A stretch of DNA of 64,000 nucleotides from the NCBI GenBank assembly GCA_963669155.1, contig OZ022587.1:20957426-21021425 (forward strand), written 5' to 3'. The notes beneath the pieces were generated by a model. That model made no database searches. It was not told the origin of the DNA and saw only the letters and a list, made by a program, of their open reading frames with translations. The DNA comes from Arbacia lixula (lineage: Eukaryota; Echinodermata; Echinoidea; Arbacioida; Arbaciidae). The translations under genes and the position numbers were made by a program. How positions within the stretch are numbered: position 1 is the first letter of the stretch; every line of letters begins with the position of its first letter. Below, one piece after another: positions 3,745-47,514 of this stretch.

Positions 3745-4442
3745 GTACCAATACCCATACCAAGATCAATATCAATACCAATACCAATATTGATGTTAAT
3801 GCAAATACATGTATAAATACTTGTATTAACAGCAAAAATACTTATTCTAATACAAATACCAATATTGATACCAATACTAATATCAATATTGATACCAATA
3901 CCCATATCAATATTGATACCAATACCAATATAAATATTGATACCAATACTAATACCAATATTGATACCAATACTAATAGCAATATTGATACCAATACTAA
4001 TAACAACATTGATACCAATACTAATGACAATATTGATACCAATACTAATAACAACATTGATACCGATACTAATATCAATATTGATACCAATACTAACTCC
4101 AATATTGATACCAATACTAATATCAATATTGATACTAATACTAATATTGATATTGATACCAATACTAATACCAATATTGATACCAATACTAATACCAATA
4201 TTGATACTAATACTAATATCAATATTGATACCAATACTAATACCAATATTGATACCAATATTGATACCAATACTAATAACCATATTGATGCAAATACTAA
4301 TACCAATATTGCTGCCAATACTAATAACAATATTGATACCAATACTAATAGCAATATTGATGCCAATACAAATAACAATTTGATACCAAATAAGAACTAC
4401 ACTAATACCAATACCAATACCAAAACCAACATTAAGATCGAT
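3745..4442. repeat. 24-bp minisatellite
   Basis: About 29 units of a 24-bp sequence built from ATTGATACCAATACTAATA-type blocks, with 6-bp substructure (TACCAA). It fades rightwards into looser CCAATACC-like repeats up to about 4660. Because 24 is a multiple of 3 and the unit lacks stops in several frames, it gives overlapping open frames on both strands (I/G/N- or L/V/S-rich). These have no coding support. Confidence 0.92.
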
Positions 4443-25403: not shown

Positions 25404-25481
25404 CTTGCGAGGAGGGTGGTTGCCGCGGACTTGGCTGCAGCGCTTTGTCTATATCATCAGACGTAAGGTTTGGCAGTGGAG
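25404..25481 (-). CDS. erg: Erg ortholog, linker exon with TSDDxDKALQ motif
   Basis: This 78-nt exon (phase 1 in, phase 1 out) encodes PLPNLTSDDIDKALQPSPR followed by QPPSSQ. It closely matches the human ERG segment TPLPHLTSDDVDKALQNSPR that directly follows the Pointed domain; vertebrates encode that on an alternatively used 81-nt exon which FLI1 lacks. The acceptor is cttttttgtctaaactctctgcag|CTCCAC in outline, and the donor is CGCAAG|gtatgt. The incoming G from the Pointed exon makes GCT (Ala), giving KQ-A-PLPN. The segment has no known fold and lies between the Pointed and ETS domains. Length and phase allow it to be skipped without a frameshift. It is an easily missed exon because it has no long surrounding open frame. 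Confidence 0.92.
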
Positions 25482-30785: not shown

Positions 30786-31270
<485 letters not shown>

Positions 31271-33123: not shown

Positions 33124-33344
33124 CTTCCTCTCCTCCTCCTCCTCCTCCTCCTCCTCCTTCTTCTTCTTCTTCTTCTTCTTCTTCTTCTTCTTCTTCTTCT
33201 TCTTCTTCTTCTTCTTCTTCTTCTTCTTCTTCTTCTTCTTCTTCTTCGTCGTCTTCTTCTTCTTCTTCTTCTTCTTCTTCTTCTTCTTCTTCTTCTTCTT
33301 CTTCTTCTTCTTCTTCTCTTTCATCTCCCTCTTCTTCATCTATT
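33124..33344. repeat. (TCC)n then (TTC)n microsatellite
   Basis: A TCC array to about 33157 then TTC to about 33316, with one GTC-GTC interruption near 33247; pyrimidine-only on the plus strand. Confidence 0.97.
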
Positions 33345-34281: not shown

Positions 34282-34727
34282 GCCTCTCTCCGTTTGTCTG
34301 TCGGTATGTCTCTCCCTCTCTCACCATGTGTCTCCCGCCCCTCCTCTCTCTATACACCTTCCCAGTCTCTTAAGTCATCCCTATTCAGCACACGACATAA
34401 GAGGGAGCCAGATGCAACCGATTCGTTGCGATTCCTTAAACATTCTCGTCTATGGCAGATTGTTTCAACTATCTCAACTATTCACATCTATTCCCATCTT
34501 TTAATATCTTTATAGGATTTCATTTCACACCTTAATTGATGAGGACTGCGGGAAAGTTATAAAGTTATGTGTTGCTTATTAGGTATATGTGTATATATTT
34601 AGGGGGCTGTGGCTAATGAATCCGTTGTTGCTAAAACAAAAATCCTTACAGATGATGAGGTAGAAAATTAAAACACTTCTACTTTGGTCTAAAAATATGT
34701 GAATACAAAAGTTATTGTATACTTTTC

Positions 34728-34933
34728 GTTTCCTACCTTGTTTGCGGAAAGCGTCGCAAGTAATGTGACCACGTAACCATATCTAAAATATCAACGAATT
34801 TTCATTTGCTCTCTTTGCTTTCAAGAGGAAGATCAGGTGCGAGTTTCTGTTTCCTACCTTGTTTGTGGAAAGCATCGCAAGTAATGTGACCACGTGACTA
34901 TATCTGTAATCTCAACAACATTTGTTTTTTATT
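34728..34933. repeat. tandem copies of the Pointed-exon donor region
   Basis: On the plus strand, a segment starting gtttcctaccttgttt occurs at 34728-34784 and 34849-34905 (offset 121 bp, about 90% identical), each running through gcaagtaatgtgaccacgt. The real exon end at 34935 carries the same accttgttt core. On the minus strand each copy reads CAAACAAG|gtagga, a plausible 5' splice site. The spacer at about 34824-34845 also resembles the exon end: read on the minus strand it gives SHLIFLLK against the exon's SHLTFLKQ. This looks like partial tandem duplication of the exon's 3' end. Confidence 0.75.
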
Positions 34934-34936
34934 CAC

Positions 34937-35137
34937 CTTGTTTGAGGAAGGTGAGGTGCGAGATGAGGACATCGACGTTCAAGTTGTTTGTGAGGCGGCT
35001 GAAGTCTTCTCGGGTCATCTTGCACAGGTGCTTGCCGTCCATGTTGAACCGGGAGACCTGGACTTCCTGGAGCGCGTACTCCCGCACTGCCCACTGGACC
35101 CACTGCTGAACGTGCTCCGGGGTCCACATGTTGGGGT
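34937..35137 (-). CDS. erg: Erg/Fli1 ortholog, Pointed (PNT/SAM) domain exon
   Basis: This exon of 201 nt (67 codons, phase 1 in and phase 1 out) encodes a Pointed domain. Landmarks are DPNMWTPEHVQQWVQWAV, then REYALQ, then NMDGKHLCKMTREDF, then SRLTNNLNVDVLISHL ending TFLKQ. The WxxxHVxQWxxWAVxEY helix, the DGKxLCKM core and the final SHLxFL helix are as in ERG and FLI1. In the family this five-helix fold mediates protein-protein contacts and self-association upstream of the ETS DNA-binding domain. The acceptor is preceded by a strong pyrimidine tract and reads cggtacgtag|ACCCCAAC. The donor is AAACAAG|gtgaat. Reading past the donor meets TAA after Gly-Glu, so intron retention would truncate the protein. 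Vertebrate Pointed exons have the same phase and nearly the same length. The flanks are unusual: see the repeats at 34728-34933 and 35186-35565. Confidence 0.96.
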
Positions 35138-35185
35138 CTACGTACCGGGAGCAAGGAGGGGGAGAAGGAGGAGGAGAAGGAGACG

Positions 35186-35565
35186 GAGGATGACGTCATT
35201 ATATTGCACATGGTCATAGAAGCAATTTCAAGATTCAAAATTTGATTATATTTTCACTGAAACCGGATTCGATAAGAATACATAAATTCAGGTAGGAGGA
35301 TGACGTCATTATATTGGACATGGTCAAAGTAGCAATGATATATATATATATTACAACTCTCTTCAAGATTCAAGATTCGATTCTATTTACATCGAAACCG
35401 GAATAATAACAATATATAAATTGAGGTAGAAGGAGGATGACGTCATCATACTGAACAATGTCATAAAAGCTATGATAATCATACTACTACTTCTTTCAAG
35501 ATTCAAGATTTGATTATATTTTCACCGAAACCAGAATAACAACAATACATACATTCGGGTATAAA
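35186..35565. repeat. three-copy tandem repeat, each with a CRE (TGACGTCA)
   Basis: Three copies begin with a purine-rich GGAGGATGACGTCAT, with CRE octamers at 35191-35198, 35301-35308 and 35438-35445 (spacings 110 and 137 bp). Each continues with ATATT or ATACT, a GGTCATA-like stretch, a CAAGATT block and a GAAACCGGA-like block. The repeat begins about 50 bp from the Pointed-exon acceptor, and its purine-rich edge runs into that exon's pyrimidine tract. Confidence 0.8.
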
Positions 35566-40029: not shown

Positions 40030-40310
40030 AGAAGAACAAAAAGAAGAATGAAAAAGAGAAGAAGAAGAAGAAGGAGAAGGAGAAGAAGAAGAAGAAGAAG
40101 AAGAAGAAGAAGAAGGAGAAGAAGAAGAAGAAGAAGGAGAAGAAGAAGAAGAAGAAGAAGAAGAAGAAGAAGAAGAAGAAGAAGGACAAGAAGAAGAAGA
40201 AGAAGAAGAAGAAGAAGAAGAAGAAGAAGAAGAAGAAGAAGAAAATGAAGAAGAAGAAGGAGAAGAAGGAGAAGAAGGAAAAAAAGGAAAATAAAAGTGG
40301 AAGGGTAGGA
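40030..40310. repeat. (GAA)n microsatellite
   Basis: A GAA array with scattered GGA and single GAC units, purine-only over most of its length. Long GAA/TTC arrays can form triplex DNA. Confidence 0.97.
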
Positions 40311-43290
40311 GATGAAGAGGAAGGCAAAGAAGAGAAAACAAGTAGAATGGAGATAACAAAGGTAAAAGAAGAAGAAGACGAAGAAGAAGAACAGCAACAA
40401 TTTAACCATTTAGCACAGCACAGCAAACTATTCAGATTCTAAAGTGAAATATGTAACACAATTTATGCCAACAGCTGCATGTCTTTGTTCTGTCATCAGC
40501 GCTGACATTACAACTAAAAAAAATAAGTGAAAAGAAACGCTTCATCCCGAGCTCGGGGAGGCGATTAAGAATATGTGACAAGGACAGAATTCTGACATCC
40601 TCCTTGCAAGCTTCTTGGATCTCATGGGCGTGCTCTAGGACAGGATGGGCGCACACACTATAAGGCAGCGCGTTCAAGATGGGGCGGGGAGGGGGTATCT
40701 TGTAATCTGATCCGGAGGGAAAGCCCGGCAGACAAAAAGTAACACTGATGTATTTTCATCATCAGTGAACTATCCCTTTAATCTTCGGCTTTAATCGCGG
40801 AGCGGGGCGAATTGGGCTTTGTGATCGTCAGATTTTAAGAGTAATGGTTGATCATCTTGAGGGTGACCCTACCAATAAAACTAGGTTGCATTATCAGCAT
40901 TTTGTCATTCTCTCTGTATGTCCCTCTTATCAGATGGTATCTCCCATTGTGTATACTTCAATATCATGAATTCGGAGTTTTCCAATTGAGCATGCGCAGA
41001 ACAAGTTTCAAGCCTATATATATTTCGCGCCATTTAAGTAAACGAAGAGCTTCATGGCCGGTAGATATCATAGAGTTTGATCGTTATGGGCCAATGTTGC
41101 ACTTTTCCACCAATGATAATTCACAAATCCCCGTGAGCAATATATCTTATGACATTGAAGGAGTTAACAGTGATGATTATATCACGTTTCACAGCTCTGT
41201 GGGAGACAGGTGAAAACACACACTGTTCCTTCATGGTAATGGTGTCATGCGAAATACCTTGACACTCAACATCAAGCGTGGTTTCGGGAACACACACACA
41301 TGCGAATATGTTTGCAATCTCTGGCGTTAAGTCAATTGACTTGATAAGAAAAATGGCTGCCTTAACAATTTGCATTAGTTTATATCACTGTTTGTAGAAT
41401 ATGACACAAACACAAGCGATTGATCATCGGCAGATCTGATGCCACAGATACTATATTACGTTCTTAACCCATTGTTTCACATCCACCGAAGATAACGTAG
41501 GCCTGTTTCCATTCAAACACGATTTGTCTTTCCTGTGTCACGTATGGAAATTCTTAACATGACTGAGCGTATTTTTTCGTGTTAATCGTTACGTATTCCT
41601 AACCATGTTGCTATTAGCAAAATGTTGTTCTCTGTTTTTGTTTTCTGATGACAATCTATTAAATTACCTCATACGCACATCACAGTGTTTAAATCCATAA
41701 CACTTGATTTAGATACAAGGGGAACAAGGTTAGAATGAATTACAAAAATAAAGTGCAAAATACTAGACAATGTAGTTAAATATTATTAATACGTGATATT
41801 TGATCGGATTATGGCAGAGGAGATAGTGGGATACGTTTAGCTGCACATAGATCTACGTCAAGTTTTACAACATTGCACATCGTGCTATCGCTTAAACCTC
41901 GTCTCACAGGTCGAGTGCCGAAGAGCATTCGTTGCCCTAAAAACTAACCCCCCTCGACCAATTTCTCCTCGACGTTTCTTTTTTAATGGCCACAGTGTTG
42001 CGGAGCACGGGGCTTTTCGGAAGATAGTATTTCATAGCGCTCATTACCCGACATCCGCTGGCGGGGTTTTCTTTGGAGGTCTTGATGCTTATCGCTGTGG
42101 CTAGGGGCAATCCGCTTCCCGTTCATGTCAACTCCCATCCCCGCTCAGTCCTCGCGAAGCCTCGACCGTCCGATGCGTTTGACCGGGCACCGTCCGGGCT
42201 AGGGTGGGTTCCATCAACCGTTACGCCACAATGCTGCGCTTCAGCACGAGACACGAAAATAAACGCGTGGGATTGTAGGCGCCGTTTGTGCGCTTTACAT
42301 TCAGTAGTGGCGCTAAAAATATAAATTACTGATTGTCACATTTCATTTGCCGTTCGCTTTCTGTCTCAGGACGCAGGCTCTTGATTTCTCGACTGATCCC
42401 TATTTCGGATCTGTACGATCAAACGATAAGATTTGATACAATCCAAATTGCTGCAAAGCTGATCTAGATAACCCCATTTACATGATTTAGGTCTAATGGT
42501 AGACCCATCCATATAAGGCAACTTAATTTCCATATGCCCGTAATGCAGGGAATTTGACTGAGCATTGCTCGAAACAGATTGACAGCTTGATTGAAAGCCT
42601 CTTTAAAAAGGATCCGTTTCGTAAGCATTGATTGATGCATATTTTAGAGAAGTCGTTGCAATGTGTGAAACTTAAAATCGCACTTACTTTCTTTCTTTAC
42701 CATAGATAGCCTAGATTAACTCGCTGTTTCCCTCAAGACTTCCTTCAGTTGGTTGTATTAGAAATAATATTTGTGTTCCTTGGTAGAATTTCAGCTGAAT
42801 AATTACGCAAGTCAGACAGTGGTTTTAAGGTTATTTTTGTTCAAAAACTGTGCCATCAAGAACCCTTTTCTTAAATGGTGTTGATAACAACTACATTTTC
42901 AAAGATGGTACTGATAGGAACCATGCTGGCAATCATGTCAATGATAGTGCTGATAAGAACCATATGGTGTCGCTTTTGTGACAAAATCTTTTTGAAACGA
43001 ACTACTGTATTTTCTTATATTGCATAGCACAGTACATTAGAAGTCGATGAAGGCAGAGGGTAGTGTAGTGAATGTTCAAACGTGAGGCGCACACTGCGCA
43101 GATGCACAATGTCATGTACTTTGTTGCCAATGGCAGAGCCGTGTGTTGGTGGTGTTTGGAGGAATTCTCCGTCATGTTATTTTTATCAAGCGATCGATGT
43201 TGAGCTGTCGGGGCTCGCTAGCGGCCCATTGACTGAAGATTCGCTGAAACGAGGCTGGGAGAGAGCCGATGGGGATGAGGGAGGGGGGGG

Positions 43291-46988: not shown

Positions 46989-47514
46989 CTGCTGGGACTA
47001 TGACTCGCTTCTCATTGGTGGTGACGTTTGGTGGCGGGGACCTTCCTGTGGTAGCAGCCGAGGCGGAACGCTCCTCAGCATTGGTACCCGCTGTGGTGCC
47101 CAGGTATGGCTGTGGCGGGCATGGGTACGGTGGGGCGGCCTGTGTGGGCTCAGCCGTGATGGTGCCGGGTGGCGCTCCATGCGGCTGCTGCTGGCGGTGC
47201 TTCGCTACGCTGCAGTCAAGCGGGGACTCGGGTTCCCCGCGGCTGACCTGGGGGGCTGTGAGCCCGTCGTGGGCGGCCGCAGCGCTGGGCTGCTCGATCT
47301 CCTGCTTCATCCTGCTCGCTGTCTGCGCGCAAGAACTCCACAGGACTGCTTCGGCGGTGGGCGACGCGACCGGGACGGTCTGTTTAGGTTTGTGTCCAGG
47401 CGTCGTCAACAGGTGGCTGGTCGTTGGAGGGGACTGCGCGACGGTGTTGGACTTGGTGACGTCACGGTATGAAGGGTCGAACATCGACTGGTCGTCTACT
47501 ACCGAAAGCGCTTC
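46989..47514 (-). CDS. erg: Erg/Fli1 ortholog, N-terminal coding exon
   Basis: The 526-nt exon reads 175 codons plus one base on the minus strand. It opens with EALSVVDDQSMFDPSY, matching the start of the conserved part of vertebrate ERG and FLI1, and ends with PPPNVTTNEKRVIVPA, matching the block just before their Pointed domain. Between them are PESPLDCSVAK (FLI1-like) and RMKQEIE, which sits where ERG and FLI1 carry a SUMO-acceptor psi-K-x-E motif. The rest is Pro/Gln/Ala/Thr-rich and probably disordered. The acceptor is tctatacag|GAAGCG, in phase 0. The donor is CCAGCAG|gtgaga, leaving one G that joins AC of the Pointed exon to make Asp (VPA-D-PNMW). The family encodes nuclear ETS transcription factors. 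The region is about 50 residues longer than in human ERG as I recall it. The family assignment is firm; because invertebrates usually have one gene of this type, it should be a pre-duplication ERG/FLI1 ortholog. Confidence 0.95.

Follow-up and report, generated by a model that had tools for sequence, protein, structure and literature searches.

Latent 5′ splice sites are described in PMC8890436 as intronic GT dinucleotides that score above zero in MaxEntScan and lie behind an in-frame stop. The same paper reports that in human they outnumber the authentic sites 6- to 9-fold, that more than 98% of them have an in-frame stop upstream and that more than one-third of the authentic donors have a higher-scoring latent site downstream. 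Small tandem duplications, for their part, can move or create introns (PMC4974935 and PMC2891723), as in potato RdRp, where the duplication crosses an intron–exon border, and in the near intron pairs of Drosophila. For human ERG, PMC4162137 describes ERG8, a known transcript that departs beyond exon 12, carries 70 unique residues and retains the Pointed domain without the DNA-binding domain.

In the sea urchin Arbacia lixula, a tandem duplication at the end of the Pointed exon of an ERG/FLI-type gene is accompanied by two donor-like sites that invite comparison with each of these systems. Like the latent sites of PMC8890436, they are good-scoring intronic GTs behind an in-frame stop, which can outscore an authentic donor upstream; unlike that set, which is built on human data, the sea urchin pair is identical through tandem duplication and is known here from sequence. 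As in potato and Drosophila (PMC4974935 and PMC2891723), a small tandem duplication has copied splicing signals, but whereas those cases gave new introns or intron positions, the Arbacia duplication crosses the donor-side border, the copied donor is dead and the gene structure is apparently unchanged. The product resembles that of ERG8 in retaining the Pointed domain without DNA binding, although it is predicted from sequence, and a Pointed-only product may thus have a loose precedent in the human transcript (PMC4162137).

The window, that is, the whole 64-kb stretch of DNA analyzed (C12:20957426-21021425, in a genome searched over 607 Mb and 590 contigs), includes a portion of a minus-strand ETS gene of ERG/FLI type. 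The Pointed exon of this gene (35137-34937, minus strand, 201 nt, phase 1-1) matched Pfam SAM_PNT (E 9e-24), and a PDB search ranked ETV6 constructs, with three matching stretches each, above the Pointed domains of FLI1 and ERG, which were the top single-domain matches (E 1.6e-24 to 5.8e-24). Using a human ERG probe, we recognized three exons with tblastn: the Pointed exon (52% over 69 columns); the next exon downstream (25404..25481, minus strand, 78 nt, phase 1-1, with AG and GT borders), which reads APLPNLTSDDIDKALQPSPRQPPSSQ and matched at 63% over 30 columns, of which roughly the first 10 precede the exon start; and an upstream exon from the N-terminal region of the gene (46989..47514, minus strand, E 6e-7), which ends with VTTNEKRVIVPA plus one base ahead of the donor GTGAGA and probably starts at the AG from which we read it. 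The true 5′ splice site of the Pointed exon, AAG/GTGAAT (34935..34936, minus strand), has a conserved border and phase. The LKQ end of the exon is followed by A-PLPNLTSDDIDKAL, aligned with YLRE and then TPLPHLTSDDVDKAL in human ERG, and translation continues in frame across the join as it does in the human protein; the paralog exons L044 and L045 share this border. The conserved border and the in-frame join therefore identify 34936 as the true donor, and the gene model of the original prediction is correct. On the same strand and about 70 kb further downstream lies an ETS exon (C12:20921756-20921992), which we take to be of ERG/FLI type. A Pointed domain and an ETS domain of ERG/FLI type thus appear to belong to one gene, and the N-terminal, Pointed, 78-nt and ETS exons are probably all joined in one transcript.

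Two other ETS-family exons lie on the same strand, both downstream of the ERG-type ETS exon: an ETS exon (C12:20801325-20801564, L009) about 120 kb away and a Pointed exon (C12:20818139-20818333, L044) about 103 kb away. They are likely parts of one gene, presumably ETS-like, and the arrangement with the ERG-type exon recalls the vertebrate ERG–ETS2 and FLI1–ETS1 neighborhoods.

A tandem duplication of 119–120 bp (34962-34844 versus 34843-34724) spans the 3′ boundary of the Pointed exon; its units are 80.5% identical over 123 columns (self-blastn, E 4e-24). Unit A (34844..34962, minus strand) takes in the exon's final 26 nt, the true donor and the intron past the first donor-like site, and unit B (34724..34843, minus strand) comprises an echo of the exon end, encoding SHLIFLLK and with the donor GT lost, followed by the intron copy and the second donor-like site. 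The duplication, with two adjacent homologous units of which one holds the exon edge, crosses the exon–intron border. In register, the exon end CTCGCACCTCACCTTCCTC aligns with CTCGCACCTGATCTTCCTC of unit B at 17 of 19 positions, and the score of the exon end against the echo (125) was equalled by 0 of 4,958 randomly drawn other stretches of the window. An SHLIFLLK-coding echo had been proposed for the spacer between two 57-bp copies, and translation agrees; the 57-bp copies are real, but the repeat is larger than they are and includes the exon end with which the echo pairs. The true donor AAACAAGGTGA aligns with AAGCAAAGAGA in unit B, where the GT is absent; the duplicated donor is therefore dead, and no second copy of a working donor was left by the duplication. 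The idea of a partial exon duplication stands in so far as the last 26 nt of the exon, the donor and the intron following it were copied, but the decoys do not correspond to the true donor within the 120-bp duplication.

The two core copies (copy 1, 34849..34905, with its GT at 34857-34856; copy 2, 34728..34784, with its GT at 34736-34735; both minus strand and both reading AAG/GTAGGA) lie 121 bp apart as originally predicted and share 53 of 57 bases. The pair of CAAACAAG/GTAGGA sites represents one intronic motif in two copies, each located toward the far end of its unit. We rejected the descent of the decoys from the true donor via the 120-bp duplication, as the register is wrong. A core shared by the three sites and followed by GTAGGA at both copies and by GTGAAT at the true donor is nevertheless present as described: CAAACAAGGT occurs exactly three times when both strands of the 64-kb window are searched, each time on the minus strand (34935, 34856 and 34735), while 0.25 occurrences are expected per window and none of 100 shuffles reached three. 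The true donor matches the decoys at 14 of 15 positions (TTCCnCAAACAAGGT), and its local alignment score was matched or exceeded by 73 of 4,951 (copy 1) and 75 of 4,950 (copy 2) stretches drawn from the window and by 24 and 12 of 2,000 shuffles, respectively. These frequencies are suggestive of a common descent of the true donor and the decoys rather than proof of it; the link may be an older, smaller duplication or perhaps chance.

The original prediction had suggested scoring the three donors, and we found that the spare sites do at least as well as the true one. With a position weight matrix (PWM) of metazoan donor frequencies, both copies scored 4.41 (rank 33 of 3,470 minus-strand GTs) versus 4.06 for the true donor (rank 47 of 3,470), and pairing with the U1 5′ end gave −9.2 kcal/mol at the copies and −6.9 at the true donor. 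The spare sites, which follow the true donor at distances of 79 and 200 nt, are thus credible donors by predicted strength. They also share the attributes of latent sites, being intronic GTs with a positive donor score, here from the PWM rather than MaxEntScan, and having an in-frame stop upstream, directly after the border. This is the TAA foreseen two codons past the border: the frame reads GGT GAA TAA and the product ends in LKQGE-stop, so that use of either copy truncates the protein in the way anticipated. The predicted distance from the stop to the junction would be 71 or 192 nt, and the usual nonsense-decay rule is 50–55 nt; if the copies are used, the predicted outcome is either a Pointed-only protein or nonsense decay. 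The identical protein end would also result from simple intron retention. Judged by their scores, the spare sites may have the potential to compete with the true donor.

To place these features against the genomic background, we counted tandem clusters (offset 60–300, an alignment of 50 nt or more, identity of 75% or above) and donor-like sites in 20 control stretches of 10 kb, picked at round coordinates of the same genome (L022–L041); one of them (L041) is near the ERG-type gene on the same chromosome and another (L040) includes 200 N. The 200 kb of controls contained 24 clusters, some of them belonging to longer multi-copy arrays; 11 of the 20 stretches had at least one cluster, with seven in a single stretch and none in nine. 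The window contained four, two of which are parts of a short-unit array (3746-4379), the other two being the exon-end duplication and a cluster on the Pointed exon's acceptor side. Sites scoring at least 4.06 numbered 11 in the 9.45-kb intron after the Pointed exon, both copies counted, and 233 across the controls' 400 kb of strand (0.58 per kb). Of 5,000 random 200-nt stretches, 574 contained one or more such sites; one site so good and so close is therefore a one-in-nine occurrence by chance, and the second spare site is there because the duplication copied the first. As both tandem clusters and equal-scoring sites are frequent in the controls, the duplication and the spare donors look ordinary.

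The repeat on the acceptor side (35185-35564) has a unit of about 133 bp in 2.5 copies and contains TGACGTCATNATA three times (35191, 35301 and 35438; 0.01 expected), which we take to be a CRE-like palindrome in an intron of the ERG-type gene. The window as a whole is strikingly rich in microsatellites, with many CT/GA runs and with trinucleotide arrays of AGT (30786-31269, about 161 copies), CTT (33157-33341, about 62) and AGA (40030-40391, about 122).

Seven Pointed-domain matches were found in the genome, and three of them, the window exon, L044 and L045, could be placed at the conserved border; in L042, L046 and L047 only the domain front matched, leaving their exon ends unplaced, and L048 had no match to the probe. 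Within 400 nt of L044 there is no site scoring at least 2.5 except its own donor. In the other paralog, L045, presumably GABPA-like, the own donor has a score of 3.94 with the same PWM and is exceeded by two sites further on, 42 nt (4.88) and 336 nt (4.84) behind that donor. A dispersed repeat as the source of the duplicated part found no support in the genome and window searches: the 501-bp stretch around it had no other DNA match in the genome except nine short ones to a pyrimidine-rich part of the query (8-53), in a search that skips common words and scores best candidates only and by which rarity is not provable, and a 21-base piece of the core was found in the window, at up to three mismatches, only as the two copies. 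In viral_contigs, a poor place to look, an exact match was sought and 0 were found, and the Pointed exon had no confirmed relative.

Identity is distributed unevenly within the unit. The 57-bp core is identical at 53 of 57 positions (93%) versus 36 of 57 (63%) in the adjoining 57 columns, a contrast that gave a Fisher P value of 0.0002 with the borders of the original prediction, and in a border-free permutation of columns the observed best segment was reached in 24 of 20,000 cases. The dead copy of the true donor sits in the poorly matching part, and the middle stretch is weakly alike, 76 of 5,000 shuffles being as good. Such a pattern is not what plain neutral decay following a single event would give; conversion would account for it, as would constraint acting on the core or replacement of sequence around the dead donor. 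We consider it unlikely that local gene conversion, or a role as a cis-regulatory element, has kept the core alike independently of splicing. The sharp change of identity within the unit fits such a process, as do the CACGTG of copy 1, which we take to be an E-box, and the recurrence of the CRE-like palindrome on the other side of the exon; however, CACGTG reads TACGTG in copy 2, so the E-box is not what is kept, and the cores show no folding advantage over shuffles (z 0.77 and 0.55). Fold z scores of units and cores together were like those of shuffles (−1.00 to 0.77), and Rfam gave 0 matches at the gathering threshold, which leaves a structured RNA without support. That the core has stayed alike because the spare donors form a regulated poison extension, through which a master regulator of ERG type would alternate between full-length transcripts and ones that are Pointed-only or decay, seems extremely unlikely.

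Such an extension would be used in some cells and would, through a Pointed-only protein unable to bind DNA or through decay, lower the output of ERG. It would suit donors that score no worse than the true site, two routes that both end in LKQGE with the stop far enough from the junction (71 or 192 nt), a core maintained at 93% and the human ERG8, which is reported in PMC4162137 to antagonize full ERG in a fusion-transcript setting. We nevertheless regard it as quite improbable, given that equal-scoring sites are common in the same intron, in the controls and behind the donor of one paralog (L045), and that the copies contribute nothing to the protein outcome if intron retention yields the same end. 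There is very little chance that the copies instead bind U1 uncut, as pseudo-donors that help to define a Pointed exon with moderate U1 pairing. The weaker pairing of the true donor than of the copies would agree with this, and downstream-bound U1 stimulates the natural donor of PAH exon 11; but in that study (PMC5933811) the PAH site is at about +17 to +20 and a greater distance leads to exon skipping, while the distances here are 79 and 200 nt, and the true donor, at rank 47 of 3,470, is not clearly weak. We give next to no credence to the cores being a pair of small alternative exons of 46 nt each (AG/ATAT...CAAACAAG/GTAGGA): both copies have an AG directly before and a good GT after and read without a stop in the frame continuing from the Pointed exon (DIVTWSHYLRCFPQT and DMVTWSHYLRRFPQT), but their acceptors are poor, with 8 and 9 pyrimidines in 20 nt versus 16 and 16 at two true acceptors, and 46 nt would shift the frame, after which the next exon runs into a stop.

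A neutral tandem duplication that left latent, normally unused donors is, in our judgment, a highly probable explanation. The duplication and its register, the dead donor, the scores and the reading frame are seen directly in the window; the mutational mechanism was probably slippage or unequal exchange, which in one event would have copied about 120 bp across the Pointed exon's 3′ boundary. Unit A, upstream, would have remained joined to the exon and retained the working donor; in the downstream unit B, then part of the intron, the exon-end echo would have decayed and the donor GT been lost. An intronic donor-like AAG/GTAGGA would have been copied along, giving two latent 5′ splice sites downstream of the donor, which, if used, would add GE-stop after the Pointed domain and so create the premature stop upstream of the junction. 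Use of the spare sites under normal conditions is probably nil or at noise level only, and the duplication itself appears neutral. Against the neutral reading, the spare donors outscore the true one and follow it closely, only 574 of 5,000 random 200-nt stretches containing any site of that quality, and the contrast between core and flank is one that gene conversion or constraint would predict. When U1 occupies two sites separated by more than 40 nt at the same time, the downstream site is reportedly favored (Eperon et al., cited in PMC5933811), which argues for competition.

The locus neatly illustrates that, where a genome is rich in repeats, a tandem duplication can place latent splice sites next to a conserved exon, with the caution that equal donor scores are no demonstration of competition. 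Should the sites be in use, a developmental regulator would have acquired an off switch of its own from a small duplication, and the locus would be a natural experiment in which a weaker proximal donor is set against two stronger distal ones.
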